Below, piece by piece: positions 2,405 through 33,271 of a DNA stretch of 33,271 nucleotides; position 1 is the stretch's first letter; each line of letters opens with the position of its first letter. The stretch lies in contig CALUQL010000014.1 in NCBI GenBank assembly GCA_944322895.1, forward strand, positions 1-33,271. Direction: 5' to 3'. The notes beneath the pieces were generated by a model. That model ran no database searches, was not told the DNA's origin, and was given only the letters and a program-made list of their open reading frames with translations. Source of the stretch: Candidatus Gastranaerophilales bacterium (GTDB lineage: Bacteria > Cyanobacteriota > Vampirovibrionia > Gastranaerophilales > Gastranaerophilaceae). The position numbers and the translations under genes were made by a program.

Positions 2405-3432
2405 TTACTTGTAATCTTTAATATTTAATTCAGAGCCAGACAATATACTTGAAGTTATTAAAATTAACCATTTCGACCAAATAATTTGAATGTTTTTTCT
2501 TTGTTCAAAGAAATCTGTTCTAAGATATGCTCTCTCGGTTGATGAAAAATTAAAATGACAAATATAAGCTTCTTTTTCTTCAAAGGTAAAAGTTTTATTA
2601 TTTTCTAATAATTCAATTGTCGTTCTATATATTGCTCGACATCCGTGAATTGTGAAAAGCTCTTTATATTGAGTAGGAATTGTTCTTCTGATAAAAGATG
2701 AGAAATTTTTATATTTACAAACAAATTCTTGAGTATCTTTAATAAGAGAATTTAAAATTGAAGTTACAGGAATCATAAAATTTTTTTTACATTTGGTATT
2801 TATAACAACATAACTATCATTTTCTTTGTAGTTTTTGATTAGTTGAATTGTTTCATTGACACGAGTTGCAGCAATGAATTGAATTAACCAAATTTTATAT
2901 ACATAGATTGATTGTTTTTGATAGATATTTAAAAAAAAATGATAGATTTCTTTTTGGGCATCGTTTAAGGTATGAAAATTATCACAGTTAAGAGCAGGAC
3001 GTTTAATACTATCATTCTTTAGTTTGGGAATTTTGTAATTTTGTAGGGGGTTATATGGAATCAGTTCATTTTCATATAGCCAAGTGAAAAAAAACTTACA
3101 TATAGTGAGATAATAAATTTTAGTTTGGTTTTTTATTTTTTTTTGAAGAAGTTGTCTTGTTTTTTGTGAAAAATCAATTTCTGTTACTTTTTTTTTAAGT
3201 TTGTATTTCCTATTAAATTATTTAATGCTACCAATAATGCTTTTTTACTATTAGTTGGTTTATTCTGAATTTCTATAAAGTATATATAGTGTTCGTATAT
3301 TGTATTTTTGTCGTTATATTTTTTTGTATTTAAAGAAATTTTTGCTTCTTCAGGAGTTAAAACTTCAATTGTTTTTGATGTTATTCTGATATAGATTTCA
3401 GTATTATCATCATTTTTATAAATTACAGTCAT
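2405..3432 (-). CDS. tyrosine recombinase in two frames joined by -1 slippage
   Basis: The upstream frame (ATG 3430-3432 to TAA 3184-3186, 82 residues) is followed by a second open frame from about 3217 to 2405, shifted by -1. Joined, they give 342 residues, a normal integrase length. The second frame holds the whole catalytic domain: Arg in AATRVNE (codon 2861-2863), a Lys-rich beta-turn near 2792, HGCR (His 2645-2647, Arg 2636-2638), a second His (2555-2557) and the nucleophile Tyr in RAYLRTDFFEQR (2525-2527). These motifs resemble the P4-type/phage integrase family. The shift falls in nine A residues ending in A AAA AAG, directly before the zero-frame stop. The gene starts inside the end of the serine recombinase gene (17-bp overlap), so the two are co-transcribed. 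It could be programmed frameshifting, transcriptional slippage, a decayed gene, or an indel error. Confidence 0.75.
3184..3196 (-). promoter_or_regulatory. slippery A-run with immediate stop (candidate -1 frameshift site)
   Basis: On the coding strand the zero frame reads TTA AAA AAA AAG TAA. The heptamer A AAA AAG (3193 to 3187) is in exactly the phase used by the E. coli dnaX and many IS frameshift sites. An SD-like AGGA lies upstream at 3211-3208, 14 bases before the heptamer, at the approximate distance of stimulatory internal SDs. The nine-A run would also allow RNA-polymerase slippage. Confidence 0.6.
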
Positions 3433-4150: not shown

Positions 4151-4420
4151 ATGGAATACAAAGATTTAGATGATTACTTCGAACAAGATGAAAAAGAAGA
4201 ACAACCTGATTTATGCCAAGGTCTAACCAGAGAAATATGGAATGACAATTTTAAAAAGAATGGTTTCATATATATAGAAGTTGGAGATGAGCCTAAAGGA
4301 TGGTCTTCGAGAGTTTATAAAGATAATCATAGAGAATTTATTGATTTAGATGAAAATTATAAAATTGTTGTAAAAGGTATTGCTCCTGATTTTGATTGGG
4401 AAAAAGCTCTAAATGAATAA
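4151..4420 (+). CDS. small acidic protein, presumed antitoxin of the zeta-type toxin
   Basis: The product is 89 residues, strongly acidic at its N-terminus (residues 3-20). A perfect AAAGGAG lies 6 bases before the ATG. It has no recognisable DNA-binding domain and does not resemble the classical epsilon antitoxin by eye. Its stop overlaps the toxin start by 8 bases, the translational coupling usual in toxin-antitoxin operons. The antitoxin call rests on size, charge, order and overlap with the zeta-like gene, not on a recognised family. It may correspond to small acidic partners found next to standalone zeta-family kinases. Confidence 0.6.
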   Translation: MEYKDLDDYFEQDEKEEQPDLCQGLTREIWNDNFKKNGFIYIEVGDEPKGWSSRVYKDNHREFIDLDENYKIVVKGIAPDFDWEKALNE

Positions 4421-5306
4421 AACTGAGAATACTCATGTAAGACTTGTTATTCTTGCAGGTCCAAATGGTTCAGGTAAAAGCTCATATTTTGAAAAAAGAA
4501 ATAAATTATTTCCAAAAATTTTTGTTAATCCTGATGTTATAGCTAAGGAAATTAATTCTGAGGATGTTTGGTCTGTAAGAATAGTCGCAGGACGAAAAGC
4601 AATTGAGCAGAGAGAGGAGTATTTAAGCAAAAAGGAATCATTTTGCATAGAATCGACTCTTAGTGGAAATTCTGAAATAAATTTTATTAAAAAAGCTATT
4701 CAAAACGGTTTTAAAGTTACTTTAATTTTTGTTGCTGTAGATAATGTAAATTATAATGTCTTTAGAGTTTCTCAAAGAGTTTTAAATGGTGGACACGATG
4801 TACCTTATCAAGATATTGCGAGAAGAAGAGAACGTTCGCTGAATAATTTTTTAAAGATTTTTCCTTTAGTTCCTAGAATTTTAGTAATAGATAATACAAA
4901 AAAAATAAAAACAATTCTTCGGAAAAATAATAATAAAATAACTTTTATCTCAAAAGTTTTGCCTAAATGGTTTACCTATTTATTTTCAAATGAGTTATTA
5001 GAACAATATCGAATTGAGTCAACAAAAAACAAAAATATTAGTAGCACTAAGGATACATATTTTATCGTTCCTTTAGGCATGAAATACAAGGAAGGTAAAG
5101 CTTTAGGGGCTCAATGGGATTCTACAATTAAATATTGGTATGTTCCATCAGGAAATGATTTAACAACATTTTATGAAAAAGGTTGGAAGATACTTCCTGA
5201 TGAAGAAGTTAACAAGTTAAAATCTCAAAAAGCAATACTTGAAGAAACTAAAAAAGAAACAAAAAAAACTATTATTGTTGATGAGAGCCGTGGACGTGGA
5301 AGATAA
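4413..5306 (+). CDS. zeta-type toxin kinase fused to a DUF5710 domain
   Basis: The product is 297 residues. Residues 10-190 form a P-loop kinase of the zeta/PezT type: Walker A GPNGSGKSS (residues 16-24), a VNPDVIAKEI motif corresponding to the substrate-binding Asp region, an E-T motif in FCIESTLSG, and an arginine-rich lid (ARRRERS). Known zeta toxins phosphorylate UDP-N-acetylglucosamine and block cell-wall synthesis; some relatives use other substrates. Residues about 215-258 (a YFIVPLGMKYKEG-type start, then GAQWD, then KYWYVP) match the DUF5710 fold common in plasmid primase and ArdC-type proteins, and recur in the TraC protein of this same element. The last 25 residues are charged. The gene overlaps its presumed antitoxin by 8 bases and is followed by a terminator. 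Confidence 0.8.
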   Translation: MNKTENTHVRLVILAGPNGSGKSSYFEKRNKLFPKIFVNPDVIAKEINSEDVWSVRIVAGRKAIEQREEYLSKKESFCIESTLSGNSEINFIKKAIQNGFKVTLIFVAVDNVNYNVFRVSQRVLNGGHDVPYQDIARRRERSLNNFLKIFPLVPRILVIDNTKKIKTILRKNNNKITFISKVLPKWFTYLFSNELLEQYRIESTKNKNISSTKDTYFIVPLGMKYKEGKALGAQWDSTIKYWYVPSGNDLTTFYEKGWKILPDEEVNKLKSQKAILEETKKETKKTIIVDESRGRGR

Positions 5307-5601: not shown

Positions 5602-5626
5602 AAGAGGAGGCTAGCTCCTCTTTTTG
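5602..5626 (+). terminator. strong intrinsic terminator overlapping the right direct repeat
   Basis: Perfect arms AAGAGGAG (5602-5609) and CTCCTCTT (5615-5622), loop GCTAG, followed by TTT G TTTT. The U tract is the first part of the 26-bp direct repeat, so the module boundary and the transcription stop coincide. Confidence 0.75.
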
Positions 5627-5648
5627 TTTTGAACACCAAAGAAGAAGT
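5623..5648. repeat. 26-bp direct repeat, right copy
   Basis: Identical to 1578-1603. The base before it differs (T at 5622, C at 1577), which breaks one position of the left inverted arm. It marks the right edge of the recombinase/toxin module. Confidence 0.7.
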
Positions 5649-6724: not shown

Positions 6725-7447
6725 TTATTCTAATCCCACTAAAGAATTGTTAATTAAGGTGAAATAATCACGCTTAATGTTTTTAATTCTTTGTTTTTGC
6801 ATAAGTCTGAAGTCTGGAGATTCGACTCCTTCATCGAATGTTAAATGTTTCTTTAATAAGCTATTTAAATCAGCCTCAAACTCATTTTTAATTTTTGGAA
6901 GGGTCACAACACCACGAATTTTTTCTTTATTTTCTGTATAAACTATTGTGTCATAGAATGTTTTGTTATCAGCAATGTTGCCAAACATTGAATTGAACCA
7001 TACAACAATATCAGTATTGAATGATCGACAGATTGATTTTAGTCCGATCATTGTATCGTTTAAGCTTTGACCACCGATGATTACAGTATGAATGAACACT
7101 TTATGTCCCATGTCAAGTAACATTGGTAATACTTCATTGTTAATTAAGTAATTTGCAAATGGTTGAAAGTTAGATGCACCTGTATCAATAATACAATCAT
7201 CGCAATTATTGTCAGCAATTGTTTCAATCAGTTTATCAAATTTGCTAGGATCAACTTCCTTTTCATCGTTGTAAATTTCAAGATGAGTAACGTTCAAGTT
7301 TTTGAATGCTGTGAGTGTTGCATTATTTGGGTCGGTATCAATAGGAAGAATAGTATTGCCTAAAGAGTTGAAATATTGACATAATAGATATGCAACAAAT
7401 GATTTACCGACACCACCTTTACCTTGCATTATTATATGAATGTTCAT
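6725..7447 (-). CDS. traL: TraL-like ParA-type ATPase of the transfer region
   Basis: The product is 240 residues; RP4 TraL has 241. The N-terminus MNIHIIMQGKGGVGKS carries the deviant Walker A (residues 9-16, GKGGVGKS). It is followed by DTDPNNATLTAFKNLNV, closely matching the IncP TraL start, and a Walker A' type CIIDTGAS near residue 88. ParA-family ATPases dimerise on ATP. TraL is a non-essential helper of transfer and is not a partition protein in RP4. Its place between traK and traM, with no parB nearby, argues for TraL rather than a plasmid-partition ParA. Confidence 0.88.
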   Translation of the reverse strand: MNIHIIMQGKGGVGKSFVAYLLCQYFNSLGNTILPIDTDPNNATLTAFKNLNVTHLEIYNDEKEVDPSKFDKLIETIADNNCDDCIIDTGASNFQPFANYLINNEVLPMLLDMGHKVFIHTVIIGGQSLNDTMIGLKSICRSFNTDIVVWFNSMFGNIADNKTFYDTIVYTENKEKIRGVVTLPKIKNEFEADLNSLLKKHLTFDEGVESPDFRLMQKQRIKNIKRDYFTLINNSLVGLE

Positions 7448-18400: not shown

Positions 18401-19845
18401 AGGAGCAAAGTGAAACATCTGAAGAAGAAGTATCACAGACGTCTGTTCAGAATTCTGAATCCAAAGTTGAATCGACTACTGATGAAGTTGAAAAAACTGA
18501 AGAACAAACAACTACTCAGGAAGAAGCTCAAACGGCTAGTGTAGATACAGAAAATTACACTAACATTGCTGATGTTAATGATATGGATTCTTATTTGAGT
18601 AAAGATATTTCTAATGTTCCAAATAGAGAATATTTGAACGTTGATTTTTCAGAAAAAAACGCTGTTAAATCAATGGGGGCTCAATGGGATAAAGACAAGA
18701 AAAAATGGTATGTCGAAGGCGAACTTATAGGCGATCCTAGATTTGAGCAATGGAGAAAACCTAAAGTTGTAAATATTCAGGAAGAAACAGTGGTGTATGA
18801 TAATGTTAATGAGGCTTTTGAGGCTTTTAAACGTGATTTAGATGTTTATGGTTGCAAATTAGATGAACGTTCATTTAAACAAAATGGCGATCAAATTTCA
18901 GGAAGAGTAAGTGTGCCAGGTGATAAACAGGGTGAAAAAGGTGCTACTTTCTATTTTCATACTAATGAAAATCAGGCTGTTACAGGTATTTTATACGACT
19001 TCCATCAAGCAAATAGAGTTGTATTTAAACGTACATATGCAACAGTTAATTCTATTAATAATATGAGAGCTAGAAATGGGCAATCAAAGCGTTACACTAA
19101 CTTTGGTAATACTCAACCTCAGCAGCCAATTATTAAGAATCAAGTTCAAAGAAAAGTATCTAACTATAATGTTACAAATGCTGTATTACTTGAAATAAAG
19201 AAATATCCTAAAGCTCAACATCACTCTTATTTAGTAAAGAAAGGTATTCAGCCAACAGAAGGAACTTATATTAAGCCATGGAATGGTAATAATTACCTGT
19301 CAATTCCGATGGTTGATATAAATGGTAAGATTACAGGGTGTCAATATATTCGAGAAGATGGCTCTAAGACTAACAAGTTAGAGTCTAACAAGAAGGGGGC
19401 TTTTCATCCAATTAATGGAATTCAAACCTTAGCAAATAAACCTGCAATAATTATTGCTGAAGGGTATGCTACTGCATGCACAATCAATGAAGTCACTAAA
19501 AATTATTTTGGTGTTGTTTCTTCTTTTGGTTCTGATAACATTTCAGATGTTGCAGAAAAGCTTCATGAACGTTATCCTGAATCTTTAATTGTTATTGCTG
19601 CTGATAATGATCACAAGCATTCTGATGGTCACAATGTTGGAATTGAATCAGCACAACACGCTGCACAAAAGGTGAATGGTGTAGTTGTAATTCCTAACGT
19701 TACGCAAGGCAATGATTTTAATGATCTTTATAAGGAAAAGGGGCTTGAATCTGTAAGAGCTGAATTCTTGAAAGTTCTTGAAGAACTTAAAAAGCGTAAA
19801 AACGTTAAACAAGAAATTAAACAACAAAAAGGTTGTTCTCGATAG
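15448..19845 (+). CDS. traC: TraC-type antirestriction/primase fusion (ArdC, DUF5710, Toprim)
   Basis: The product is 1465 residues, longer than RP4 TraC1 (about 1061). Residues 1-300 are an ArdC (DUF1738) domain: APWEKPW, NNALTL, the metalloprotease-like HELSHW at 222-227 and a downstream Glu in QEELVAEISS. Residues about 328-378 look like a degenerate DUF5710. An acidic, low-complexity linker follows. An intact DUF5710 lies near 1058-1105 (REYLNV, MGAQWD, KKWYV). The C-terminal 240 residues form the TraC Toprim primase: IIIAEGYATA at about 1331-1340, VIAADNDHK and QGNDFNDLY. ArdC domains bind single-stranded DNA and blunt restriction. TraC primase is sent to the recipient, where it primes the complementary strand. 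Confidence 0.92.
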   Translation: MANNAENAMENYKKMVSDMIISSIEKGVAPWEKPWSVEDMKMLRPHNPESGSFYQGNNALTLVLASMVKGYNDSRWMTYNQAKKAGGTVRSGEKSIPLVHVIYGKEEPEVDEQGRPIVDDKGKLKMKYIPFRVPVVTKFNLFNVKQIDFPLDHEYSQSIKPEALPTQSWDDYERAEQMIKDTDAKISYSGTQAYYQPSSDEIYIPPKELFSTQEGFYSTVFHELSHWTGAESRLNRHYGAKGTKAYAQEELVAEISSFMICLNLGIGHNLENHATYVNSWNECLHDDKQDIVDAVDQAFDAQKYITKLCRDKEKDRVNAVNNADERIYLVNINNAEDIAKLASLGALLDDDQRTYITQEHELKDFIDYLPDDIKNTLLQNSEEQSENQIFDTVKGVFSDFSLVEEYVHRNNNSLSEKEKNKLTEDLQKVREQADALLALLQKSEEQTEDLVVSPSDVEVENVDQRDKIDEFTQSKKEQEDDISDNNNPKLYQSETVARLITDFNNEAFNLDEHHPVLEPIYRTLARFATEDSLKFEVTQNDHSIRNPNKFFSVLKEESEKLGNNQAYELLTSDDYYNSYKYNFINNILFRDIRYDALRYLSRETIIKDPDIQASNNNNVEFNNFENLEVTYHWSEYGFDIPNDKDIVLKGKDAYQLLKKVMNVDKEFFNRGSGCYKTELDIKIGNIEFRDRFGLGEGEFRYDTLGESLIHIYRRSFDYDMVFQKENALSEDEFRSKLPKELFDLISQEKAFEREIENTEVLQPKVQAESSIEDIGYGIPNRNEEVENKEINLKAFYKKHVDHSYKSYVDTLYDDKGQITVKNADDFKNLITQDIATQEFKDQQGAQTDWNNINWDAEFTRYQKRFHRRDDRFEDKKHPNWERIKLVCSIFARNFVKGYKALHPEKEDDLLSNEKLLQDFSEKTLENITSYREYVNQQIQINLESISKGEDSNYAKLADYMLNDKKAYDALFGNIVNEIVAKDLDKEQSETSEEEVSQTSVQNSESKVESTTDEVEKTEEQTTTQEEAQTASVDTENYTNIADVNDMDSYLSKDISNVPNREYLNVDFSEKNAVKSMGAQWDKDKKKWYVEGELIGDPRFEQWRKPKVVNIQEETVVYDNVNEAFEAFKRDLDVYGCKLDERSFKQNGDQISGRVSVPGDKQGEKGATFYFHTNENQAVTGILYDFHQANRVVFKRTYATVNSINNMRARNGQSKRYTNFGNTQPQQPIIKNQVQRKVSNYNVTNAVLLEIKKYPKAQHHSYLVKKGIQPTEGTYIKPWNGNNYLSIPMVDINGKITGCQYIREDGSKTNKLESNKKGAFHPINGIQTLANKPAIIIAEGYATACTINEVTKNYFGVVSSFGSDNISDVAEKLHERYPESLIVIAADNDHKHSDGHNVGIESAQHAAQKVNGVVVIPNVTQGNDFNDLYKEKGLESVRAEFLKVLEELKKRKNVKQEIKQQKGCSR

Positions 19846-32389: not shown

Positions 32390-33088
32390 TTAATCGTAAA
32401 ACATTTCTATCAGTGATTCTATATTAGTTGGTACTAATTTGCAAACATTAATATATCCTTTAGGTGTATTTTTTATATTAGAAATTGGAGTTGAAAATAA
32501 AATTGGTGGATAGAATGGAACAGTATCAAGTATACGAGATAATGTTTTCAATGTAGGTATATTTTCATAAGTTGTTAATCTATGAAAATGTTGCATTGAT
32601 AAACCACTATCTCCAAGACATTTTGTAAGTGTAATATTATATTTTTTTAAGCTCAATTTAAGAGATTCAACAAAATAATCTATATATTTGTTTACTAAAT
32701 TATTTATTTCATCATCATTGTTTGTAACAAGTTCTTTAATTTCATTGTTTGGTTTGTATTCGTTTGCAAGTTTAAAGAAGTCTACAATTGAGCAATCTTT
32801 AGGAACTAAAATATCAATTCTTGTAAAAGAATGTTCTTTTGTCTCCCATTCAGGAAGTTTGAAAAAATCAGACAAGGGAATACTTAAACATTGAGATGCC
32901 CTAACAATAAAAGTTAAACCTATTGAATTAGCAAGTCTTTTAACTGCATAGTAGTTAATGCGTTGAATTCCACTATATTCGCAGAACTTATTTACAGAGC
33001 ATTTTCTCTTTTTAAGTTCATTGTCAATAAGCTCCATGATGTATGTTTGTAAACGTGAACAAATATCATTTTCTTCTTTGGTATTCAT
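32390..33088 (-). CDS. regulator with two tandem HTH-like domains
   Basis: The product is 232 residues. Two halves (about 8-80 and 125-195) show the same plan: a long amphipathic helix, then VNKFCEYSGI / LTKCLGDSGL, then a recognition-helix-like part (RINYYAVKRLAN / SMQHFHRLTTYE), then a helix with LTFIVRASQCLSIPLSDFF / PTLKTLSRILDTVPFYPPILF. This resembles XRE-type HTH domains repeated once. It lies upstream of and points toward the trb operon, the place held by the repressor gene trbA in RP4, although it is larger than TrbA. It probably controls the inverted-repeat promoter at 32058-32117. Confidence 0.7.
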   Translation of the reverse strand: MNTKEENDICSRLQTYIMELIDNELKKRKCSVNKFCEYSGIQRINYYAVKRLANSIGLTFIVRASQCLSIPLSDFFKLPEWETKEHSFTRIDILVPKDCSIVDFFKLANEYKPNNEIKELVTNNDDEINNLVNKYIDYFVESLKLSLKKYNITLTKCLGDSGLSMQHFHRLTTYENIPTLKTLSRILDTVPFYPPILFSTPISNIKNTPKGYINVCKLVPTNIESLIEMFYD

Positions 33089-33190: not shown

Positions 33191-33215
33191 GTTAAATAAT
33201 GATTAGTTATTTAAC
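33191..33215. repeat. perfect inverted repeat at the circle junction (possible att/core site)
   Basis: GTTAAATAA (33191-33199) and TTATTTAAC (33207-33215) around the 7-base spacer TGATTAG. The equivalent site at 1146-1170 keeps the spacer and right arm but only part of the left arm, because the tail sequence differs before 1150. Nine-base arms with a 7-base centre match the general layout of tyrosine-recombinase crossover sites. Confidence 0.6.
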
Positions 33216-33271
33216 GTTAGCAATTGCCTAATGGGGATGATGCGAGTTGTGTTCGGGTTGGGTGATTTATG
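33195..33271. repeat. 77-bp direct repeat, right copy at the window end
   Basis: Identical to 1150-1226 up to the last base of the window, so the true length of the repeat is at least 77 bp. See the left copy for what this implies about circular closure. Confidence 0.9.

Follow-up and report, generated by a model that had tools for sequence, protein, structure and literature searches.

A recombinase gene whose reading frame is broken at a run of nine adenines raises the question of whether an active enzyme can still be made from it and, if so, how. The gene lies near the left end of a 33,271-nucleotide stretch of DNA (the window), deposited as contig CALUQL010000014.1 of a Candidatus Gastranaerophilales bacterium. 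An earlier sequence-only reading had proposed that its two parts are joined by programmed -1 frameshifting to give a tyrosine recombinase, with the short N-terminal product competing for DNA.

The split integrase gene

On the minus strand, frame 0 of the integrase gene opens with ATG at 3432 and closes at 3184 with the codons AAC TTA AAA AAA AAG TAA, with the -1 frame being open from 3217 to its stop at 2405 (Table 1). The features on which the sequence-only reading had relied were all found, namely the zero-frame end TTA AAA AAA AAG TAA, the in-phase heptamer followed at once by a stop codon (A_AAA_AAG TAA; 3193-3184), the AGGA at 3211-3208, 14 bases 5′ of the heptamer, and a joined product of 342 residues (82 + 260) containing all of the expected catalytic residues, with ..NTNLKKKVTEIDF.. 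spanning the frame junction. A separate start for the catalytic half was ruled out, with no ATG, GTG or TTG in the -1 frame between 3217 and 2776, the latter falling inside the catalytic domain; as such an active enzyme would require the two frames to be joined. The 17-bp overlap between the end of the adjoining serine resolvase gene and the start of the integrase gene (3416-3432) suggests translational coupling of the serine and tyrosine recombinases.

The joined product is predicted to be a tyrosine recombinase, in agreement with the identity first given to it, with the catalytic residues occurring in the order R (ATRVNE), K (TKCKKNF), HGCR, H (CHFNF) and Y (RAYLRTDFF), the catalytic K being placed by eye in the K-rich strand segment TKCKKNF. 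The motifs ATR, TKCKKNF, HGCR, CHFNF and AYLRTDFF are conserved across the window and its two homologues (see below). The catalytic part matches the PHROG_1 integrase profile (E=1.9e-10) and the integrase matches the XerD profile TIGR02225 (E=7e-5), with the score against Pfam PF00589 (14.8 bits) falling under the cut-off of 27.1, indicating a divergent member of the family. An AlphaFold model of the catalytic half, built from three sequences only, reached a pLDDT of 46 and gave no significant match in Foldseek, and was discarded as support.

Table 1. Coordinates of features in the window discussed in the text (A9, run of nine A; ICE, integrative and conjugative element; L010 and WG-1, elements carrying homologous integrases).
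Feature	Start	End	Strand	Remarks
attL core, ICE left end, nrdD side	1151	1169	+	
HTH protein beside integrase	1651	2364	+	Conserved in WG-1
Integrase catalytic part, -1 frame	2405	3187	-	260 aa and stop; PHROG_1 integrase match
In-phase heptamer A_AAA_AAG	3187	3193	-	Sole in-phase copy among the element's listed genes
A9 tract, frame break	3188	3196	-	Nine A on coding strand, exact
AGGA, SD-like	3208	3211	-	14 nt 5′ of heptamer; Gly codon conserved in WG-1
Integrase N-terminal part, frame 0	3184	3432	-	82 aa; ATG start, AAG TAA end; split identical in L010
Serine resolvase/invertase	3416	4006	-	Pfam Resolvase E=1e-36; 17-bp overlap with integrase start
Small ORF (4151-4420) and zeta-toxin-like ORF with DUF5710 (4413-5306)	4151	5306	+	Other module in L010
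MobA/VirD2-like relaxase	8430	9800	+	
Type IV coupling protein	10110	12185	+	
VirB4-like ATPase, type IV secretion	27836	30373	-	
VirB11-like ATPase, type IV secretion	31093	32055	-	
att core, right end	33192	33214	+	TTAAATAA-TGATTAG-TTATTTAA; left end of the same element follows, forming an attP-type junction
Contig-end overlap with 1150-1226	33195	33271	+	Graph adjacency; 32,045-bp circle or tandem

Homologues and selection on the gene

The same nine-A run and the same split occur in a second element, L010, from the uncultured Succinivibrionaceae MAG BRZ_RV bin21 (genome G406), where the run lies at 2477 in the L072/L010 counterpart. L010 is distinct from the window, since its toxin module is different and the two ICE backbones share 96.6% identity (3.4% difference), the integrase region being 99.5% identical. 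An error of assembly or sequencing, the doubt that had been raised over the split, would be in keeping with a single-base break in a homopolymer judged from assembled contigs, but is highly improbable because two separate assemblies that are non-identical elsewhere agree on the break.

The only other homologue found was that of WG-1 (Succinivibrionaceae bacterium, L011), with an integrase identity of 75-76%, the N-terminal part of its gene falling in a gap of the scaffold. At the junction WG-1 reads TTA AGA AAA AAA GTA, such that a G interrupts the A run and the frame is continuous; the sequence of the continuous junction is AGAAAAAAAG, the frame transition itself reads AAGAAAAAAAG (A7) and the length across the junction equals that of the -1 product of the window. 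The alignment of homologues bears out the earlier reading in part, with the split and heptamer shared by L010 but WG-1 continuous and lacking the nine-A run. As deposited, the WG-1 integrase carries two frame-shifting indels 60-100 nt 3′ of the junction in a homopolymer context (L011 4050-4110), which are jointly length-neutral modulo 3 so that the frame is restored, and six genes adjoining it have no frame errors. WG-1 was presumably sequenced with 454, a method that produces homopolymer indel errors, and the two indels may be real or errors of this kind. For this reason WG-1, continuous at the junction but with two indels further 3′, was dropped as proof of an intact gene. No further homologue was found in viral contigs, plasmids or phages, nor in 41 genus, 383 family and 383 order genomes of the bin's taxa, samples that follow a bin that is probably the wrong organism and so miss relatives of the true host, which were covered by the scan of genome contigs instead.

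The integrase genes of the window and L010 are separated by three substitutions only, a small sample, all synonymous and spread over both halves; the probability of three synonymous and no non-synonymous changes without constraint is about 0.7-2.6%. The intact resolvase next door has five non-synonymous changes among nine in the same comparison. For the catalytic part compared with WG-1 omega is 0.20, with values of 0.05-0.32 for other genes of the element. No other stop or indel was found in the integrase gene of the window or L010. By these measures the gene looks selected and does not look dead, with a very recent loss still possible.

A programmed site or a chance run

The joined gene contains three runs of nine or more. 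When synonymous codons were shuffled the mean was 2.1 and 33% of shuffles reached three, so that base composition accounts for the nine-A run. Loss of one A from codons for Lys-Lys-Lys-Val automatically generates A_AAA_AAG followed by TAA, and the heptamer, its phase and the stop codon are as such not independent evidence for recoding. The AGGA agrees with the published description of an SD-like element (PMC4066793), with a motif of this kind at the same spacing occurring at 9.3% of in-phase positions in the genes of the element. No 3′ structure was detected downstream of the site (z-scores +0.7 to +1.4), leaving the AGGA at a permitted spacing as the one candidate stimulator. Conservation of frameshift sites has been judged on clusters of five or more (PMC3711429), while here the site is shared by only two near-identical copies with WG-1 continuous. 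Likewise, an A/T run of at least nine is not conserved at the frame transition, being A9 in the window and L010 and A7 in WG-1.

Programmed -1 frameshifting, whether ribosomal or transcriptional, would have been selected to limit the integrase and to make an 82-residue regulator. In keeping with this the heptamer is in phase, a stop follows at once, AGGA stands at a permitted spacing, no other in-phase A_AAA_AAG occurs in the element's genes and the A9 is kept in two copies. Against this, the relative has no such site, the SD-like motif has the background given above and falls within a conserved Gly codon, the heptamer and stop are automatic, no 3′ stimulator was seen and the run is expected from composition. 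A dedicated programmed device is therefore not supported by the sequences and, though first proposed for this gene, is improbable, nor was support found for the 82-residue product as a competitor for DNA. Were recoding to occur, the nine-A run would be no less suited to slippage by RNA polymerase than to slippage by the ribosome.

The element, its ends and its host

The window closes with 77 bases (33195-33271) that repeat 1150-1226 exactly, and other contig ends in the same assembly also overlap by exactly 77 bases, indicating an assembly k-mer of 77 and an end overlap that reflects adjacency in the assembly graph. The reads therefore ran from the right end through the core into the left end. 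The cores of tyrosine recombinases are expected to have inverted arms around a short spacer, and the right-end core consists of perfect 8-bp inverted arms flanking 7 bp (8-7-8, palindromic). The window thus combines attL with an attP-type junction, which points to an element of about 32,045 bp in the form of either an excised circle or a tandem array. The presence of this junction argues that the element bearing the nine-A run still recombines, possibly with a recombinase acting in trans.

In the genome of L010 the left end lies upstream of nrdD (L072; gene named by eye) and the right end enters the 3′ end of rpiA (attR, G406:C16; ribose-5-phosphate isomerase, named by eye), with the rpiA-side core one base shorter, TTAAATAAGATTAGTTATTTAA. 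In WG-1 a 15-bp repeat, ATATCTAAGTTATAT, stands on either side of the element, which adjoins a different gene (ruvX-like by eye). The att sites in the other loci lie at L072 4452-4528, L094 18421-18442, L069 ~18420-18520 and L070 ~6740-6770.

Since conjugation genes stand between the two att cores, the window is interpreted as an ICE of rumen bacteria, about 32 kb long and inserted at the 3′ end of rpiA, whose integrase gene sits close to the left end, rather than as carrying an integrase of the plasmid or phage type as had first been supposed. In addition to the relaxase, coupling protein and type IV secretion ATPases (Table 1), a VirB-type set, a topoisomerase and an ArdC-like protein are encoded between the cores. 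The relaxase, coupling protein and T4SS, with integration between direct repeats and an excised-type junction (a tandem also being possible), are the features looked for in an ICE, and the element is predicted from gene content to be conjugative. A full-text literature search for Succinivibrionaceae ICEs returned only work on the yak rumen resistome, off-topic judging by title and abstract.

The toxin modules have been swapped between the two ICE copies, the window carrying a zeta-like module (4151-5306) and L010 a nucleotidyltransferase (89-1530; AbiEii-like by eye), with both modules ending in the same DUF5710-type tail. A perfect 26-bp direct repeat (1578-1603 and 5623-5648; none expected by chance) flanks the cassette of HTH, integrase, resolvase and toxin genes; the repeat is also present in L072, G406:C16 and WG-1 and resembles the start of an XRE-like gene at 33088 (ATGAACACCAAAGAAGAA). 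Inside the left end, a relatively G+C-rich 240-bp stretch (1160-1397) is 88% identical in WG-1 (L070 6510-6751), the WG-1 neighbours diverging around it. No Rfam match and no folding excess were found for a non-coding RNA at 1180-1400, and the stretch may harbor arm sites, a small RNA or an oriT.

The contig is probably mis-binned, with the bin in which it was deposited (G000) not being the host, and the true host is most likely the Succinivibrionaceae species of L010. About 20 kb of chromosome beside the element in the L010 genome has no match in 1.86 of the 2.15 Mb of G000, and the 1,149-bp chromosomal flank of the window is identical to that of L010. The ribosomal protein S10 of G000 scores higher against non-gammaproteobacterial S10 than against that of E. 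coli, with the S10 chains being those we take to belong to these organisms. In G000, rpiA was not found. G000 carries both tRNA-Lys(UUU) and tRNA-Lys(CUU), the latter of which would make slippage of the ribosome on AAG weaker (PMC5009743), but this argument was dropped because the contig is evidently mis-binned, in which case these tRNAs are not those of the host; no tRNA genes were found in the examined pieces of the other two genomes. The use of the host dnaX as an internal control was likewise abandoned, the gene not having been found in the examined pieces of G000, itself probably the wrong organism.

Explanations for the broken frame

The best explanation, to which we give an even chance, is that an indel in the A tract of an ICE integrase is partly rescued by transcriptional slippage, ribosomal slippage or both. 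The break would be a one-base change in the A run of this lineage and not an ancestral regulatory device, because the relative that lacks an uninterrupted tract is continuous. RNA polymerase adding an A, or the ribosome slipping -1 on A_AAA_AAG, would then generate a minority of full-length enzyme of 342 residues, with this reduced amount sufficing for excision and re-integration of the element. Counted in its favor are the nine-A split in L010, the three synonymous changes with no non-synonymous change, the omega of 0.20 and the circular or tandem junction, with the right end running into rpiA in the L010 genome instead. What we infer is the slippage itself, its mechanism and the making of the junction by the enzyme so produced, and the junction could also reflect a tandem array or a recombinase supplied in trans. 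Runs of nine A or T are slippage-prone in many bacteria, nine being the length at which slippage matters (PMC1088944), and in Blochmannia genes broken at poly-A tracts but otherwise intact yield about 30% full-length transcripts, with a sister species that has an interrupted tract showing no break (PMC3017870). The same protein would result if the ribosome slipped -1 on A_AAA_AAG (PMC4066793; PMC5009743). Counting against rescue, slippage of E. coli RNA polymerase on A runs is less efficient than on T runs (PMC6260861), and a genome-wide survey of Buchnera and E. coli found no restored reading frame (PMC5574713).

Recent inactivation is the next most likely explanation, a real but clearly smaller prospect, in which the one-base break killed the integrase and the element is either fixed or moved by a different recombinase or, in trans, by a relative that is intact, the circular junction then being, with the same limited probability, a tandem array or the product of such mobilization. 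Replication slippage is the easiest way to alter the length of an A run, WG-1 is continuous at the break point, no 3′ stimulator is present and the two indels in WG-1 as deposited hint that breakage of the gene may recur. Weighing against inactivation, two non-identical copies share the break with no other disabling or non-synonymous change and the attP-type junction is present. Less likely again, and doubtful, is a mixed or phase-variable population in which the A run flips in length, such that the nine-A (off) allele is the majority that was assembled and a minority in-frame allele supplies the integrase. Poly-A tracts, being hypermutable, are able to serve as phase-variable switches (PMC3711429) and consensus contigs hide minority alleles, but the run is A9 in both assemblies and classical switches usually have tracts longer than nine. 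After partial rescue of the broken frame, the order that remains is recent inactivation, then a mixed-length population, then a truly programmed site.

Comparison with known systems

Partial rescue by slippage has its closest parallels in the poly-A indel genes of Blochmannia and Buchnera (PMC3017870; Tamas et al. 2008, cited there), where likewise an AT-rich gene is broken at an A run, the rest of the gene is conserved and a relative has an interrupted tract without a break. Here, however, the gene is the integrase of a mobile element known from sequence, the tract is A9 only and the host is no endosymbiont. The same nine-A run is found in Thermus thermophilus dnaX, which uses RNA-polymerase slippage, and the same heptamer with an SD-like element in E. 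coli dnaX, which uses a ribosomal -1 shift. In dnaX, however, the long product comes from the zero frame and the shift occurs efficiently, with E. coli dnaX having a 3′ stem-loop whereas no stem-loop and no conservation were found at the integrase site. The catalytic part of the recombinase is likewise in the -1 frame in IS3-family transposases with A_AAA_AAG or A9/T9 recoding (PMC4066793; PMC1088944), although these are conserved across families and have stimulators, and their orfA, taken by itself, is a DNA-binding domain whose role is known. The integrase shares with the tyrosine integrases of ICEs and P4/HP1-type islands the order R..K..HxxR..H..Y, a position as the terminal gene of the element, inverted arms around 7 bp and insertion at the 3′ end of a gene, differing in that it is divergent, its frame is split and its target is rpiA or, in WG-1, near a ruvX-like gene.

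The finding may thus be of a known kind, a homopolymer frame break possibly tolerated by slippage, here in the integrase of an ICE. It is an unlikely but conceivable extension that the A tract sets the mobility of this ICE family, with slippage or length switching acting as a throttle on excision. If the nine-A allele is active, frame-broken integrases in metagenomes should not be dismissed as dead and slippage alone can sustain ICE excision, while if the allele is dead the circular junction requires another recombinase. Either way, the integrase, the 8-7-8 core site, the rpiA target and the conjugation genes outline an ICE family of the Succinivibrionaceae.
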